Shown: one piece after another, positions 7,494-35,797 of the stretch
How the letters are laid out: every line of letters starts with the position of its first letter
How positions within the stretch are numbered: position 1 is the stretch's first letter
Virus record (IMG/VR): IMGVR_UViG_3300032069_000029
Span: 1-35,797 of that record
Reading direction: 5' to 3' (one strand)
From: a virus
DNA: 35,797 nucleotides
Notes under the pieces: generated by a model
Told to the model about the DNA's origin: nothing
What the model saw: only the letters and a program-made list of their open reading frames with translations
The model's database searches: none
Program-made: the position numbers and the translations under genes

Positions 7494-7502
7494 AGTATAA
7501 AA

Positions 7503-7577
7503 CCTCCTGGAGAACGGTTGGTCACCCGTTAAGGATGGCAGCATCTATATGAGGTGTGGGAAACTACCGCCGGGAGT
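7503..7577 (+). ncRNA. Putative three-way-junction leader RNA of the late operon
   Basis: A closing helix CTCCTGG/CCGGGAG (7504-7510 with 7570-7576, one G-U) encloses hairpin AACGG/CCGTT (7513-7517 with 7526-7530) and hairpin CATCT/AGGTG (7542-7546 with 7552-7556, one G-U). Purine-rich joining strands (AAGGATGGCAG and TGTGGGAAACTACCG) look like a riboswitch or ribozyme core, but I could not match a known class. It lies 5' of the late genes and directly after a promoter. Structure was found by eye. Confidence 0.5.
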
Positions 7578-7668
7578 ATATTATAAACCAGATATGAAGG
7601 GTTTTGTTGAGAAACCATTATCAGGAAACCTGAGAAAATTTTATTAACTTTAACCAGGAGGTGTAATT

Positions 7669-8704: not shown

Positions 8705-9170
8705 GCCTATTGGAGAAGATACTGAAATGGCGAAACCCTTTTTTGAAGGGGGGGGGACCCAAGGTGACCTCGCAAAAAACAATACCTCCCGGAGGTCATT
8801 AGTTAAAAGTGAAAAACTTTCGCTAGTTGACATAAAGCGAAGGGGAAATTTACATGAGCCGTGGAAGAAGGGGGAAAGTGGGAATCCCAGGGGGAGGCCG
8901 AAAAAGGCGCAGAGTATAACTGACCAGTTGACGCAGGAGGCGCAGAGGACAGTGACGGTAGTGGTTGGCGGGGTGAAATACAAGGGGCGGAACATGGAGA
9001 TATTGGCGAAGCGGATGTTTGAGCGAGGGATAAGGAAGGTAGAGCCGAGGATGTGTTGCGAGATAATAGACAGGGTAGACGGGAGGGCGGTATCCGCGCT
9101 GGAGTTGATAGGGCGGAATGGTGAGCCGATAAAGATAACGGTTGCGTATGATGGTAATAGCAAATCGTGA
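8682..9170 (+). CDS. Terminase small subunit-like protein (GNPRGRP motif, DUF5681-like)
   Basis: A 162-residue protein. The segment WKKGESGNPRGRPKK (about 61-75) is the signature of the DUF5681-type proteins that stand beside large terminases. The following helices (ITDQLTQEAQRT, EILAKRMFERGI) resemble a helix-rich DNA-recognition domain. Residues 1-55 look disordered. It starts at ATG after AAAGGAGGCAGT and overlaps the large subunit gene. A run of nine G at 8748-8756 encodes GGG near residue 24 and could be a slippage or sequencing-error site. The proposed role is recognition of the packaging start. Confidence 0.7.
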   Translation: MEEIRENKPIGEDTEMAKPFFEGGGTQGDLAKNNTSRRSLVKSEKLSLVDIKRRGNLHEPWKKGESGNPRGRPKKAQSITDQLTQEAQRTVTVVVGGVKYKGRNMEILAKRMFERGIRKVEPRMCCEIIDRVDGRAVSALELIGRNGEPIKITVAYDGNSKS

Positions 9171-10452
9171 GTATGTAGTTCATTTGAGGCTGCCGTACGA
9201 AGAGCAGAAGCAGTTTACCAAATCATCTGCGAAGAGGGTAATTGTAAGGGCTGGACGGCGAGGAGGTAAGACGGTGGGTGCAGCAATAAAGGCAGTAGAG
9301 AAGTTCTTAGAGGGGAGACGTGTGCTTTATGGTGTGCCTACTATCGAGCAGTTGGGAAAGTTCTGGTTTGAGGTGTGCAAAGCCCTGGAAGAGCCAATAA
9401 GAGCAGGTGTGTATAAAAAGAATGAGGTTGAACATACGATAGAGAGGGCGGGGACCGAGAATCGGATTAAAGGAAAGACTGTGTGGAACGCCGATAGTCT
9501 ACGTGGTGACTATGCCGACTTTTTGATATTAGATGAATTTCAATTGATGAATGAAGATGCGTGGGAAGATGTAGGCGCCCCGATGTTACTGGATACGGAT
9601 GGGGATGTTTTGTTTATTTATACGCCACCATCTTTGAAGTCGAGTGGCATATCAAAGGCCAGAGACCCCAGACATGCCTCAAAGCTGTTCAAGAAGGCAA
9701 TGACTGACGATACAGGGCGGTGGGCAGCCTTCACGTTTCCGAGTTTTGCGAATCCCTATTTAAGTCCAGAGGCTCTGGCTGAGATTGTCCAGGACATGAG
9801 TGATATGTCCTACAGGAAAGAGATTTTAGCGGAAGATGAGGATATTGAGGCATCCTGGCTGGTTTATAGTAAATTCAATGAAAAGGTGTGTAAAGTCAAA
9901 AGATTTCCGATTCCCAAACACTGGCCCGTCTTTGTAGGGCATGATTTTGGCGGAGCTAATCCAGCCGCGCTTTTTATATCGCAGGATACAAGTAATGGTT
10001 ATTTTTATGTTTTCCATGAATATTTACCAGGTGGTGGGAAATCCACAATAGAACATATTGAGGAATTTCAGAAGATTACCGAGGGTAGAACAATTCTCAG
10101 AAGGTTAGGCGGCAGCCATCAAGAAGAGGAGGTTAGGGAGGCTTATCGGGCGCATGGTTGGTATATCGAAGAGCCATCAATACATAAAATCATGCCACAG
10201 GTGGATAGGGTAATCAATTTGATGGAAACTAATAAGTGGTTTGTTTTCGAGGACTTATTTAATTACCTCGGTGAGCTTATGTCCTGCATGTGGAAGTTGG
10301 ATAACAATGGTAAAGTTACCGATAGGATTGACCATGAAGAGAGATTTCATCTCTGTGCCTGTGCCCGATATGTTGCAACAACATTTACACCTGAAACCGT
10401 AAAGAGTGATAAACCAATAACACGCTTTTCCAGGAGGCTTTGGGTGAAATAG
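9148..10452 (+). CDS. terL: Terminase large subunit (packaging ATPase/nuclease)
   Basis: A 434-residue motor protein that would pump DNA into the prohead. Walker A AGRRGGKT is at residues 35-42 and Walker B FLILDE at 125-130 (Glu130 catalytic). A YTPPS coupling-like segment follows. The C-terminal RNase H-like nuclease starts at GHDFGGANPAALF (about 264). I start at ATG 9148; a TTG two codons earlier is in frame but less likely. Length is near the usual 430-600. It overlaps the small subunit gene and is followed 10 bp later by the portal gene. Confidence 0.9.
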   Translation: MMVIANREYVVHLRLPYEEQKQFTKSSAKRVIVRAGRRGGKTVGAAIKAVEKFLEGRRVLYGVPTIEQLGKFWFEVCKALEEPIRAGVYKKNEVEHTIERAGTENRIKGKTVWNADSLRGDYADFLILDEFQLMNEDAWEDVGAPMLLDTDGDVLFIYTPPSLKSSGISKARDPRHASKLFKKAMTDDTGRWAAFTFPSFANPYLSPEALAEIVQDMSDMSYRKEILAEDEDIEASWLVYSKFNEKVCKVKRFPIPKHWPVFVGHDFGGANPAALFISQDTSNGYFYVFHEYLPGGGKSTIEHIEEFQKITEGRTILRRLGGSHQEEEVREAYRAHGWYIEEPSIHKIMPQVDRVINLMETNKWFVFEDLFNYLGELMSCMWKLDNNGKVTDRIDHEERFHLCACARYVATTFTPETVKSDKPITRFSRRLWVK

Positions 10453-20035: not shown

Positions 20036-21022
20036 ATGGAAAATCTTACACAATACCGTTATCTCGATAAAGACGAGCTACTGCAGGGTGTCTGCCAGTG
20101 GATAGTCAATGAAAGTCCACTGTTGCAGTATTTACCCTTTAAGGAAATCAAGGGCAATGCCTACAAGTATAATGTAGACTTGACCTTACCTGAACCCAAC
20201 TGGATGGACTTCGACCAGCAAGTAGTGACGACTGCTGGCACGATAGCCCAGAGGACAACCAACATCTATATGCTTTTGCAGGATAGCAACACTCCAAAGG
20301 CATCCATCGACACGAATGCTACTCAGGACCCAGAAACTGTTGACATTGAGCAGGCATCAAGGGCGATGGCACATGCTTTTGAGCAATGCTTTATCCGGGG
20401 GCAGACTTCAACACTCAGCACTACCAAGCAGTTCAAGGGCTTGATGAGGATGCTGGCAGAATTAGAGACGGAGTCCACGACCGACCTTGACGGCTTAAAT
20501 AACAGCCAAGTTATTGTCAATAGTGCAACTTCGGCAGTTCTGACTATGGCTAAGGTCGACGAGCTTCTTGATGCCGTAAAGCCCGGTAAGCCAGATATGC
20601 TACTGATGTCTCGTAGAATCCACCGCAAACTTACTGCCCTACAAAGGGCAAGTGGTTCGGGCGTTACCATGAGTGACCCCAATACGTTTGGTTTGAGGCT
20701 TCTGACTTATGATGGCATACCAATGCTCCGCTCTGACTATATGCCGGACAACCTACCAGATGGGTCATCTAGCGTTCTGACTATTGCAACATGGAACCCT
20801 GCTACGGCGTGGGCAGATGGCTACAATAACAGTGCAATCTTCGCCATACAATTCGGTGAGGATAAGGTTTCTGGTTTGCAGTCTGGCGCTATAACGCATG
20901 AGCGTGAGGACTTTGTTGAAGACTACCATGCAATCAAGAACAGGTTTGTATGGTTGTGTGGCGCTGCTACTTTCAAAAAGTACAGCCTTGCTGCACTAAT
21001 CAACATCGATACGTCAGCCTAA
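20036..21022 (+). CDS. Major capsid protein, HK97-fold type
   Basis: A 328-residue protein with an AATAAGGAGGTAAAAG leader. The start region with SPLLQYLPFKEIKGNAYKYN (about 27-46), a central PDMLLMSRRIHRKLTALQ helix (about 184-201), the following GLRLLTYDGIPML strand and a C-terminal FVWLCGAATFKKYSLAAL are typical of HK97-fold coats without a separate maturation protease. Its place after the scaffold and the strong ribosome binding site fit an abundant coat protein. Confidence 0.88.
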   Translation: MENLTQYRYLDKDELLQGVCQWIVNESPLLQYLPFKEIKGNAYKYNVDLTLPEPNWMDFDQQVVTTAGTIAQRTTNIYMLLQDSNTPKASIDTNATQDPETVDIEQASRAMAHAFEQCFIRGQTSTLSTTKQFKGLMRMLAELETESTTDLDGLNNSQVIVNSATSAVLTMAKVDELLDAVKPGKPDMLLMSRRIHRKLTALQRASGSGVTMSDPNTFGLRLLTYDGIPMLRSDYMPDNLPDGSSSVLTIATWNPATAWADGYNNSAIFAIQFGEDKVSGLQSGAITHEREDFVEDYHAIKNRFVWLCGAATFKKYSLAALINIDTSA

Positions 21023-23190: not shown

Positions 23191-23655
23191 ATGTCCAAAA
23201 AGAGACATCTTCTATCATACTTGGCAGGAGTTTTCGATGGTGAGGGTTGCATTGGTATAACCAAGAAACGTCCCCAGGAAAAGTCCAACCAAAAAAATTT
23301 TACGTATGTTCTCTATATGCAAGTCTCAATGACAGATGAGATAGTTCCACGCCTTTTTCATATGACTTTCGGTGGTAATTTTTTTCCTAGGAGATACCCC
23401 ATAGAAGCAAGGCGTAAAACAGCCTATATATGGATTGTAAGTGGCAGTAAATGCGTCCCAATCATAAAGGACTTGATGCCCTATATTCTCTTAAAGAAAC
23501 CGCAGTTTGAATTGGGTTTGCACTTTTCCACATTAGCGAAGCCCTTAGGTTTTTATAATAGGTTGACCGAGCAAGAACTAGCATTAAGGGAGGTAGACTA
23601 CATTTTAAGCCGAAACTTTAACCACCGAGGAGAATCATTGGAGGCTAAGAAATAA
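23191..23655 (+). CDS. Free-standing LAGLIDADG homing endonuclease
   Basis: A 154-residue protein with a single LAGLIDADG-type motif, YLAGVFDGEGCIGI (about residues 10-23). One motif means it should work as a homodimer that cuts a long site and drives its own gene into uninterrupted relatives. An AAGAAGGAATAACT leader precedes it, 2 bp after the DUF3008-like gene. Its last codons supply the ribosome binding site (TTGGAGG) for the next gene, so it is neatly spliced into the operon. Endonuclease status is likely; the target is unknown. Confidence 0.85.
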   Translation: MSKKRHLLSYLAGVFDGEGCIGITKKRPQEKSNQKNFTYVLYMQVSMTDEIVPRLFHMTFGGNFFPRRYPIEARRKTAYIWIVSGSKCVPIIKDLMPYILLKKPQFELGLHFSTLAKPLGFYNRLTEQELALREVDYILSRNFNHRGESLEAKK

Positions 23656-30088: not shown

Positions 30089-32116
30089 TTATCCTTCTTC
30101 TCTCATCAAATCGATTCGGTGCCAGCCAGTAATACATTTCTCACCTACAAAAAAAGTCCACATTTCAGCAATTTCCTTTACACCTACCCATTGGGCAACA
30201 TACCGGGAATCACTGGAGAGAGTACCATTTATCATAATCGGGATACCTGACGGTTGTATGTAAGACAGAGAATGAAAATGCCCCATTACCAGTACATCCC
30301 AGGGTGGCAAACTTTGATTCCAGCGAAGTGAACGCCTATCAATTCCATAAAAGGGAAGTGAGTTGCCCGTGATAAATACCTTGCCATTACGCCTAGCGAT
30401 GAATGCCCCGTTTTTAACAGTGGGGCACCACACGATTCCCTTATGGTTTTCTCTAAATATTTGGTTTCTACCAGACCTCACTTCGGCGTGCCTGCTTCTC
30501 CGTGGCATAAAAATTGCATTATCGTGTCCCGCCGTGCGTGCTTTATGACTCCTAAACCCGCAGATAGTAGCAAGGTGTTGAAAGACATCATTACTCTCGT
30601 TATTTGATTGCCAAAAATATTCACCATTCTGAGCACCATCACCTTTCATAAGAGTATCAAACATGATTCTTAATTGCCTTGTGGGTAATTTAACTATCCA
30701 CTTGGGAAAAGGCTTTGATTGCGGGACAAGCCTTAATAACTCATTCCTAATGTTACCCCTAATGTAGAAGTCGGTGCGTCTTTGGTCTACCCTTTTCGTA
30801 TACTCAGCCCCCAAGTTGGCAAGTGATTGCTCTATCTCCGCAGTATACTGGCTGTGGACAATATGACTCTGTGTTATTTTGATTAGTTTATTTTGAATTG
30901 AGCCTTCTGTTAAAATCCAACCGCACAACCTGATAATGTCATCTGAATATATTTCAGGGTAACTATCTCTTAAAGTAGCGCTAAGTAGAGGATATGTTTG
31001 TGAATTAAGATTACTTGCTTTCACTATATCAGGGATAAATTTCTTGCTGCGTTTGCCATTTGATTGTCGGTAAGTCAAGCGGTCAACTATACATCTATGA
31101 TTGGGAGTTAAAAGCATATCTAGGCTTCGATGTTTTACATGAACCATTTCGCCGTCATAGTTATTGATTGTTATGTGTTCAAGTGCCTGTAATTCTAATG
31201 CATCCTCATTGATATTGTAACTTACAATTTTTTCGCCAATAATTAAATCTGAATATTTCTTAAAACCATCTTCCGTGAGGCATTCAGTTTTATCGTCGAC
31301 ACAAAGGTACATTGGAATTTTGTCTCCATGTAAAATTAAAAACTTGAGATTCTGGATTTTCTGGATTGCGTAAAAATCATCCCTAACCACACTTATTTTA
31401 ACTTGCGGATAATTAAGCAGTCCTACCTTCAACATATCATAAACAACGATATTCCAATTAGCAGCAAAGGAGAAATACTTTCCGAGTATTCCGTGGTTAC
31501 CTGTTACACAAATGATTTCTATTTCTGAATACCATTGACAAGCGTTAATAATAAAACTAGAAAGTTCACTATAGGCAAGCCACTTTTGCTCATCTAAGGT
31601 TAATTCCAATTCATCTAACATCACCTGCTTACCGATAAGCTCGCCGTGGCATATATCTCCAATAAGAAATATATTTAGCTTATTAACCGGGCAAAATTTG
31701 CGCTGAATATCTGCAAATCTACAAGTGGCACTGTAAAGTCTACCCATCCTTTTTAGAGCAACATTTTTATTGAAGGATTTTGTCTTTAGCCCGAACTGTG
31801 TGTCACTGAGGAGCAAAACCTGTTCTTCCTCTTTTTCTTTTTCTTCTTGAATGGGCGGAGGTCTAAGTTCTATCTTTGGTATGGGTAGAGTAATTGGTTC
31901 TGGTTTTGGTTGTGGTTCAGAAAATTGGGATGTGGGATTGGAGTTATGCGCCGATTCGGACAGATAAATTCCTCGCCTTGACATAGCGCATTGAAAGTTG
32001 CTCCGATTCTTAAAACCAAAAACCTTTGCATATTCATCCCTTTCGTGTCTCGTAGATGTCAAGTATTTTTTGACAAATTCTACCCATTGAGGGTCTTTTT
32101 CACTCGGTAATGACAT
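30089..32116 (-). CDS. Metallophosphoesterase interrupted by an intein
   Basis: A 675-residue precursor. Residues 1-50 look like a DNA-binding helix-turn-helix, followed by a Pro-rich linker. The calcineurin-like phosphoesterase shows motif I SDTQFG (104-109; Gln where D-x-H has His), GDICHG (153-158), GNHG (206-209), HGD (263-265) and GHFH (612-615). An intein occupies 272-585, between the HGD and GHFH motifs. Excision would leave a 361-residue enzyme. It overlaps the upstream gene by 17 bp and likely depends on coupled translation. Phage relatives are thought to act on nucleic acids or nucleotides; substrate unknown. Confidence 0.85.
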   Translation of the reverse strand: MSLPSEKDPQWVEFVKKYLTSTRHERDEYAKVFGFKNRSNFQCAMSRRGIYLSESAHNSNPTSQFSEPQPKPEPITLPIPKIELRPPPIQEEKEKEEEQVLLLSDTQFGLKTKSFNKNVALKRMGRLYSATCRFADIQRKFCPVNKLNIFLIGDICHGELIGKQVMLDELELTLDEQKWLAYSELSSFIINACQWYSEIEIICVTGNHGILGKYFSFAANWNIVVYDMLKVGLLNYPQVKISVVRDDFYAIQKIQNLKFLILHGDKIPMYLCVDDKTECLTEDGFKKYSDLIIGEKIVSYNINEDALELQALEHITINNYDGEMVHVKHRSLDMLLTPNHRCIVDRLTYRQSNGKRSKKFIPDIVKASNLNSQTYPLLSATLRDSYPEIYSDDIIRLCGWILTEGSIQNKLIKITQSHIVHSQYTAEIEQSLANLGAEYTKRVDQRRTDFYIRGNIRNELLRLVPQSKPFPKWIVKLPTRQLRIMFDTLMKGDGAQNGEYFWQSNNESNDVFQHLATICGFRSHKARTAGHDNAIFMPRRSRHAEVRSGRNQIFRENHKGIVWCPTVKNGAFIARRNGKVFITGNSLPFYGIDRRSLRWNQSLPPWDVLVMGHFHSLSYIQPSGIPIMINGTLSSDSRYVAQWVGVKEIAEMWTFFVGEKCITGWHRIDLMREEG
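30362..31303 (-). mobile_element. Intein with LAGLIDADG endonuclease domain
   Basis: A 314-residue protein intron. It begins at Cys272 (CVDDKTECLTEDGFKKYSDL, classical block A), has block B-like DMLLTPNHRCIV near 333-344, two LAGLIDADG-type motifs (LCGWILTEGSI near 397-407 and DTLMKGDGA near 487-495), and ends with GKVFITGN followed by Ser586 as the +1 nucleophile. Cys1, the terminal Asn and Ser+1 are the residues needed for splicing. The penultimate residue is Gly rather than the usual His, a known variation. Confidence 0.92.
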
Positions 32117-34297: not shown

Positions 34298-34374
34298 TTT
34301 ATTTTTTACAGATACGATTTTACACGGTATCCTGTACTCTTTTACACGGTATCATATAACAGGGGGCTTGACAG
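34298..34374 (-). repeat. Right copy of the 77-bp inverted repeat (control element)
   Basis: Reverse complement of 6531-6607 with one difference. It lies between the leftward late promoter and the rightward early promoter, whose -35 box is at its edge, exactly mirroring the left copy. Confidence 0.9.
34318..34353 (-). promoter_or_regulatory. Paired GATACCGTGTAAAA boxes (right copy)
   Basis: On the minus strand two identical boxes occupy 34340-34353 and 34318-34331, again with a 22-bp period, just upstream of the rightward early -35 box. Confidence 0.7.
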
Positions 34375-34397
34375 ATTCAAAGGAAGTGTGTTATTTT
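34368..34397 (+). promoter_or_regulatory. Rightward early promoter
   Basis: TTGACA (34368-34373) with an 18-bp spacer and TATTTT (34392-34397). The -10 box is weaker than that of the mirrored leftward promoter, so it may depend more on an activator bound at the paired boxes. Confidence 0.65.
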
Positions 34398-34442: not shown

Positions 34443-34622
34443 ATGAGTAAATTTTCTGTCTGGATTAGGCGAGAGGAACAAGGTAAGGACCCCGAACTTG
34501 TGCAACTACCGACACCAGAGGCAGGGTACACAATTATAGATTATGTGCGAGAGTGTGCCTACGTGAATGTCTTACCCCGGGAAATGACACAACAAAACCA
34601 TCCTGAGTACCTTAAAAATTAA
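34443..34622 (+). CDS. First gene of the rightward early unit, unknown function
   Basis: A 59-residue protein starting at ATG 34443 after AGAGAGGGGACGAG. The N-terminal half is charged (FSVWIRREEQGKDPELVQLP). The middle (TIIDYVRECAYVNVLPREM) could be a helix. It is promoter-proximal and stops two bases before the long helix of the structured RNA. No family recognised. Confidence 0.65.
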   Translation: MSKFSVWIRREEQGKDPELVQLPTPEAGYTIIDYVRECAYVNVLPREMTQQNHPEYLKN

Positions 34623-34623
34623 A

Positions 34624-34863
34624 TAGAGTTGTGCTTATGGCTGAATAAGCTGCTAAGCAGGGCTAAGGCACTAAGCGGGCTAGTGATGAACTAGCTTCCC
34701 AGGCTAACTCTGTGAGGGCAAACGCTTAGGTTGCGTGCCCACCCAATGTATTACTTATACAGTTGGACACTACTGCCGAGGGCACAAAACTTGAAAGAGA
34801 AGATGAACCTAGTAGGGGAGAAGTCCTCCAATGGTATCACGGTTCTTTCTAAGCATAATTCTA
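34624..34863 (+). ncRNA. Large putative structured RNA in the early operon
   Basis: A 14-bp terminal helix pairs TAGAGTTGTGCTTA (34624-34637) with TAAGCATAATTCTA (34850-34863; two G-U). Inside are: CTAAGCG/CGCTTAG (34671-34677 with 34723-34729); hairpin GCTAG-TGATGAA-CTAGC (34679-34695); GTGCCC/GGGCAC (34735-34740 with 34780-34785) enclosing a 9-bp hairpin CCAATGTAT/ATACAgTTGG with one bulged G (34743-34766); and GAACC/GGTTC (34805-34809 with 34841-34845) enclosing GGGGA-GAAG-TCCTC (34815-34828). No credible reading frame covers it. It lies between two early genes in a compact genome. I could not match it to a known RNA class; pairings were found by eye. Confidence 0.65.
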
Positions 34864-34893
34864 CTTAATTTTTAAGATAGAGAGAAAATAGAG

Positions 34894-35154
34894 ATGCCGA
34901 AACAAAATCAAGACCCTTTTCCGACTTCCAGTATTGGTCTTGCCAGTTATCTTCACGCTTTGGGTGGTAGAATTATTGACATAGACCGAAGCAATCCCCA
35001 GGAGCAAGTCTTTCTATTCAAATTGACAGACAAACTAGATGCAGAAATCCAGCATTACTACGATGGAACTGGCCTGGTAAGTGGCCTGGCTGTTGATAAT
35101 TCAAGAGGTGAACTTTTTAGATTACTCAGAAATAAGCAAGCAATAAATACATAG
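34894..35154 (+). CDS. DUF5659-like small phage protein
   Basis: An 86-residue protein led by AGAGAGAAAATAGAG. FPTSSIGLASYLHALGG (9-25) followed by a strand (IIDIDR), a FLFKL strand and a C-terminal LFRLLRNK helix resembles the short DUF5659-type domain found in many phages. Weak purine-rich ribosome binding site. It is the first gene after the structured RNA. Function unknown. Confidence 0.6.
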   Translation: MPKQNQDPFPTSSIGLASYLHALGGRIIDIDRSNPQEQVFLFKLTDKLDAEIQHYYDGTGLVSGLAVDNSRGELFRLLRNKQAINT

Positions 35155-35167
35155 AGAGGAGATGGAG

Positions 35168-35467
35168 ATGAGTACTTATCCAATGTGCAGCGAATGTAGC
35201 GAAATCCTTTGGGAATTAGCCGAAACAGAAGCCGGGATGTGTGAGAAATGCCAGAAGGAATTAATGGGATTTAATCTCAGCTACGCCTTAACCAAGTTCG
35301 AATCATCTATTCCCGACAGTAAACCGACGAGACGAAATGAGCCCGTAACCTGCCCTTTATGTAAAAAACAAGATGAAAATGCAGCTGGTCACCGAGGTGT
35401 TGTAAAGTGCCTGAATTGCGGGATGTTGTATTTCATTTTGAGGAGAGGAGAGAAATGGACAATCTAA
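35168..35467 (+). CDS. Double zinc-ribbon protein
   Basis: A 99-residue protein with two zinc-binding units: C-x2-C near residues 7-10 with C-x2-C at 25-28 (CSEC...CEKC), and CPLCK (62-66) with CLNCG (80-84). I favour ATG 35168, for which GAGAGGAG has better spacing than for the ATG two codons earlier. The end overlaps the pentapeptide gene by 13 bp. Tandem ribbons suggest nucleic-acid or RNA-polymerase binding, fitting an early regulator, but this is a guess. Confidence 0.65.
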
Positions 35468-35797
35468 TCGAAATCCTAGGGAAACACACAAAGTGGAGTA
35501 AGGGAGAAGATGGCGGAAAGCGGGCTGACCTGTCTGAGGCTAACCTGTCTGAGGCTGACCTGTCTGAGGCTGACCTGTCTGAGGCTGACCTGTCTAGGGC
35601 TGACCTGTCTAGGGCTAACCTGTCTGGGGCTAACCTGTCTGAGGCTAACCTGTCTAGGGCTGACCTGTCTAGGGCTGACCTGTTTAGGGCTAACCTGTCT
35701 GGGGCTAACCTGTCTGAGGCTAACCTGTCTAGGGCTGACCTGTCTAGGGCTGACCTGTTTAGGGCTAACCTGTCTGGGGCTAAACTGTCTGAGGCTT
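35455..35797 (+). CDS. Pentapeptide-repeat protein, N-terminal part (continues at base 1)
   Basis: ATG at 35455 follows GAGGAGAGGAGAGAA. About 22 residues of unique sequence ([20 protein letters not shown]) lead into A(D/N)LS(E/R/G) pentapeptides that run off the window. After removing the 123-bp overlap it joins in frame to the C-terminal part ending at 521. The repeat is very regular and highly similar at DNA level (75-bp higher-order unit), so the true repeat number may differ from the assembly. Confidence 0.88.
35675..35797 (+). repeat. Right copy of the 123-bp terminal overlap
   Basis: Same as bases 1-123 apart from A at 35784 (C at 110). The mismatch turns an AAC (Asn) codon into AAA (Lys) inside a repeat unit, which could be a sequencing error at the contig edge or real repeat variation. 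Confidence 0.85.

Follow-up and report, generated by a model that had tools for sequence, protein, structure and literature searches.

What occupies the interval between a 59-aa gene and a DUF5659 gene near the end of this phage record, and does it act as coding sequence, as DNA or as RNA? The window, i.e., the whole stretch of DNA analyzed here, is a virus record, linear and 35,797 bases long, that carries tailed-phage genes, and the original prediction had placed in this interval a large structured RNA of no assigned class, with a long helix closing it. The element and its surroundings are as follows.

9142-10452: terminase gene
20036-21022: major head protein gene
34368-34397, + strand: promoter-like site TTGACA-18-TATTTT, from a consensus scan only (10/12 matches)
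34443-34622, + strand: preceding 59-aa gene, no family match
34611-34876, + strand: entire RNA element with the complete closing helix, defined by the inverted repeat and by a homologue with covariation
34619-34637, + strand: 5' strand of closing helix P1, pairing with 34850-34868; extension to 34611 in the window phage only
34850-34868, + strand: 3' strand of P1; extension to 34876 in the window phage only
34619-34868: conserved core of the element, 250 nt
34894-35154, + strand: following gene, DUF5659 domain (PF18903, E 1.1e-8)

The early promoter from which the element was said to be transcribed corresponds to the promoter-like site at 34368-34397, which is a consensus match and nothing beyond it. 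Just upstream of this site (34310-34360), the direct repeat TTTTACACGGTATC is present in two copies about 22 bases apart and looks like a candidate operator. A leader, TAGAGAG...GAGATG, is common to the first three genes of the operon (34428, 34878, and 35152), the TAG of the third doubling as the stop codon of the gene before.

The 14-base complementary arms that first drew attention to the locus (34624-34637 and 34850-34863, with two G-U pairs) are present and lie innermost in a longer inverted repeat, 34611-34637/34850-34876, whose 27 positions comprise 24 Watson-Crick pairs, two G-U pairs, and one A-C pair. This inverted repeat is the best in the window, with a score of 18 versus a maximum of 15 in 60 dinucleotide shuffles of the whole window and a maximum of 16 in 1000 local shuffles. 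In keeping with the prediction, the 240-nt segment and the 250-nt segment both fold better than shuffles (z -2.79 and -3.27, respectively). The 212 nt inside the closing helix, folded alone, do no better than shuffles (z -0.67), and the inner helices are therefore unproven from one sequence. Because of this chance-level interior, and because BLAST found nothing, the reading favored at first was a MITE, a non-autonomous transposable element that ends in inverted repeats and duplicates a TA target. Bacterial MITEs such as RUP and Correia have long inverted-repeat ends and TA termini (PMC2229807), and both traits recur here, as the near-perfect 27-position inverted repeat has TA on both sides, at the ends of terminal inverted repeats 34608-34637/34850-34879. 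In addition, with the element cut out, the junction becomes gapless again and its spacing, 13 nt, equals that of the next gene pair.

Relatives of the phage were located through the capsid protein, and six contigs were taken for comparison. A covariance model of the interior, built on this one sequence and the fold predicted for it, matched IMGVR_UViG_3300031772_000271 (G003) over its full length at 92.6 bits, the next best match scoring 6.1.

L092 12291-12496 (G003), - strand: homologue, from the covariance model match

The capsid protein of G003 is 55% identical to that of the window phage, and the two RNA regions share a global identity of 61%. The homologue region also beats shuffles (z -4.58), and a 19-bp helix of its own, GTAAATATCGTGTTCTCTG/CAGGGGACATGGTGTTTAC, largely different in sequence from P1 of the window, encloses it. 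It is flanked by a 65-aa ORF and a 117-aa ORF, after which terminase and portal genes follow. No reading frame is conserved between the window copy and the G003 copy, which bears out the claim that the segment is non-coding, and a coding sequence was rejected on this ground. Directly upstream of the homologue in G003 lies a second well-folding segment (L092 12563-12750, - strand; z -3.1) with no gene call on its own strand; when modeled, it had no counterpart in the window and gave a weak partial match in G002 that overlaps an ORF.

In the structure proposed from the two members, P1 closes a five-way junction with the arms P2/3, P4-5-6, P7/8, and P9-10-11, for which the positions in the window and the numbers of compensatory pairs are:

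34640-34669, + strand: arm P2/P3, 3 compensatory pairs (P2 2, P3 1)
34640-34642/34667-34669, + strand: helix of arm P2/P3
34648-34651/34661-34664 and 34653-34654/34659-34660, + strand: further helices of arm P2/P3
34671-34729, + strand: arm P4, carrying P5 and P6 (compensatory pairs: P4 3, P5 2, P6 1)
34671-34677/34723-34729, + strand: helix P4
34678-34696, + strand: P5 hairpin, loop GAUGA, conserved
34698-34718, + strand: P6 hairpin, conserved CAGGCUAAYUCUGUGAG, then CAAACG
34735-34785, + strand: arm P7, enclosing P8 (compensatory pairs: P7 3, P8 1)
34735-34740/34780-34785, + strand: P7, enclosing P8 and a conserved ACUACUGC.GAGG segment
34743-34766, + strand: P8, bulged 9-bp hairpin inside P7
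34793-34849, + strand: arm P9-P10-P11 (compensatory pairs: P9 1, P10 5, P11 1)
34793-34799/34843-34849, + strand: helix P9
34802-34809/34833-34840, + strand: helix P10
34815-34828, + strand: P11, GAAG tetraloop, conserved

Covariation was scored over the 81 pairs of this structure on a MAFFT alignment of the two sequences, made from sequence only. Standard pairs account for 96.2% of cells, versus 33-46% with partners slid by 1-3 columns, and 24 of the 81 pairs are changed on both sides, versus 11.8 in shuffles (none of 500 shuffles was as high) and rising to 28 with structure-guided gap placement; the starting structure was drawn largely from folds of the same two sequences, so the percentage paired and, in part, the double-change count are favored, and a pair of sequences does not carry significance of the R-scape type. 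Compensatory changes above the control, the general mark of a structured non-coding RNA, are thus present in this two-sequence comparison. The covariation that had been sought in the helix of the 14-base arms was also found, since 8 of the 19 base pairs of P1 common to both phages are altered on both sides in the homologue. Identity is 79% in unpaired columns versus 52% in paired columns. Pairs of the G-U type outnumber A-C pairs 23:2, which points to an RNA on the sense strand of the operon rather than a DNA cruciform and disfavors the DNA-level structure offered earlier as one option. The ribozyme or intron remnant suggested along with it gained no support.

These comparisons also bear on details of the fold. 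The bulged 9-bp hairpin nested in a 6-bp helix, as described in the original prediction, is P8 inside P7; P7 is well supported by covariation yet missing from the minimum-energy fold, and therefore the true fold departs there from the single-sequence prediction. The idea of a switch between alternative CTAAGC pairings is not supported by the comparison, because the copy at 34653 is CTATGC in the homologue and the alternative pairing is not conserved; the other CTAAGC, at 34671, forms part of the conserved helix P4, with GCTTAG (34724) as its partner. Further conserved unpaired or loop elements are GAAUA, a GCUA.GCAGG segment, and GGUUG. In both members, the P6 loop (UAAY) could form four pairs with the GUUG that follows P4, although this possible contact hardly varies. 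The last four codons of the 59-aa gene run into the outer end of P1, the part found in the window phage only, so it may be guessed that ribosomes finishing this gene could delay P1 formation.

The MITE reading was ruled out as the favored one by covariation in every inner arm. The homologue keeps the inner sequence and helices, and the compensatory changes indicate selection on the RNA structure of the interior. This covariation across phages sets the element apart from RUP and Correia, as do its end sequences, which are mostly not conserved although the closing helix still fully pairs. Exact patterns for the inverted repeat and for one hairpin found no other copy in the viral and genome collections. 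A transposable element is, in our view, highly improbable. By contrast, an elaborate fold is retained in a relative although much of the sequence differs, and the element is, judging from this comparison, a functional RNA with its folded shape kept in a related phage; we put the probability that it is a genuine structured RNA on the + strand at about 95%.

We then consider what kind of RNA this is. With E values of up to 10 allowed, neither member matched an Rfam 15 family, the ROOL and GOLLD models included; ARAGORN detected no tRNA or tmRNA in the RNA and no tRNA in the window. BLASTN against phage and plasmid collections returned short chance matches only, including matches in cr50_1 and Subdoligranulum that failed when checked with covariance models. 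The element is thus invisible to BLAST and Rfam and was revealed only via a covariance model built from one sequence. When the capsid-related records and 11 further phage/plasmid records, many of them short fragments, were compared with the two-sequence model, no additional member came up, so that the members found are two, one in the window and one in G003. A pattern for finding further members is CAGGCTAAYTCTGTGAGRGCAAACG.

ROOL and GOLLD are nearest in kind to the element, being likewise phage-encoded, with extensive covarying structure, no conserved protein, and no assigned function (PMC12286853). They are much larger, with 659 nt in an example of ROOL and often >800 nt in GOLLD, often near tRNA islands (PMC12286853), whereas the core of the element, at 250 nt, falls below the >500 nt expected of these RNAs, in a window without tRNA and with no Rfam match. 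The element is a new RNA family within a known kind, the structured RNAs of phages, and it offers a defined 250-nt molecule whose structure is backed by covariation and whose core is conserved. RNAs that are large, covary, and have unpaired segments under conservation have time and again proved to be ribozymes, riboswitches, regulators of polymerase, or RNA assemblies.

The surroundings of the two copies bear on how such an RNA might work. A riboswitch or leader acting in cis on the next gene would account for the position of the element, as the DUF5659 start codon follows 26 nt after the end of its core, or 17 nt if the full P1 is counted, and the G003 copy also lies just before a gene. However, the next genes have no detectable relation, since the DUF5659 gene was not found in G003 and the 117-aa ORF next to the G003 copy has no Pfam match. 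As the next genes differ between the phages, with neither the alternative CTAAGC pairing conserved nor a terminator found at the element, a regulator specific to one gene is unlikely.

Instead, we tentatively favor a processed phage RNA acting in trans. The long P1, free to vary in sequence, would serve as a processing stem, e.g., for RNase III, and the released RNA may then work in trans through those of its single-stranded segments that are conserved, its probable binding partner being a protein of the host or the phage, or RNA polymerase. That the neighboring genes differ fits an RNA acting on its own, and excision out of a longer transcript agrees with the scan for intrinsic terminators, which detected none next to either copy on the strand of the RNA. 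Each copy is located close to the beginning of a co-directional gene run, which fits a cis element equally well. With the same reserve, the element could belong to a new phage RNA class, outside the catalogued families and in varied operons and phages, that engages the host transcription machinery, as an antiterminator of large size or by binding polymerase, or that is part of a stable ribonucleoprotein of the phage.

An RNA working in cis on transcription itself is a somewhat less likely alternative. Like the put RNA of HK022, it would bind the transcribing RNA polymerase near the start of the operon and suppress downstream termination, whichever genes follow, i.e., processive antitermination independent of the identity of the next gene. 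The window element lies about 215 nt after the promoter-like site, and the G003 copy about 230 nt after a weak one, ahead of the terminase-portal genes, while HK022 putR is found about 270 nt after its start site (PMC9378689). The likeness is that of a structured RNA a few hundred nucleotides after a phage operon promoter. However, both promoters are consensus matches only, the one in G003 at chance frequency, and a put RNA measures about 70 nt and consists of two stem-loops (PMC9378689), whereas the element has 250 nt and a five-way junction closed by P1.

The probability remaining after the trans-acting and put-like readings falls to packaging, decoy, or leader roles. The pRNA of phi29 is a phage RNA with paired ends, as is the element, and a virion or DNA-packaging RNA of this type might be suggested by the G003 copy, which sits one gene ahead of the terminase large subunit. 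In the window, by contrast, the copy belongs to the early region, with about 25 kb of contig between it and the terminase, and the terminase type of the phage is ordinary; no homology with pRNA was found. A packaging role is accordingly a rather remote prospect.

Several other features of the window were observed. Among deposited phages, Methanosarcina virus MetMV gives the best tblastn match of the terminase (9142-10452), at 49% across 58% of the protein, and for this reason an archaeal host for the window phage is possible; over the 18.8 kb of MetMV compared, the terminase was the only gene found in common. A 675-aa ORF (30089-32116, - strand), which as a whole has no Pfam match, is by eye an apparent phosphoesterase interrupted by an intein (CVDDKTECLTEDGF...VFITGNS). 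Within the structural gene region, an ORF at 23191-23655 (+ strand) resembles a LAGLIDADG endonuclease, below the curated cut-off. A pentapeptide-repeat gene with highly regular DNA repeats (35455-35797) is cut off by the contig end. Just after a pyrE-like gene, positions 7496-7587 (+ strand) match the Rfam DUF3800-VII RNA (RF02967) at 38.8 bits, with a cut-off of 36.2.
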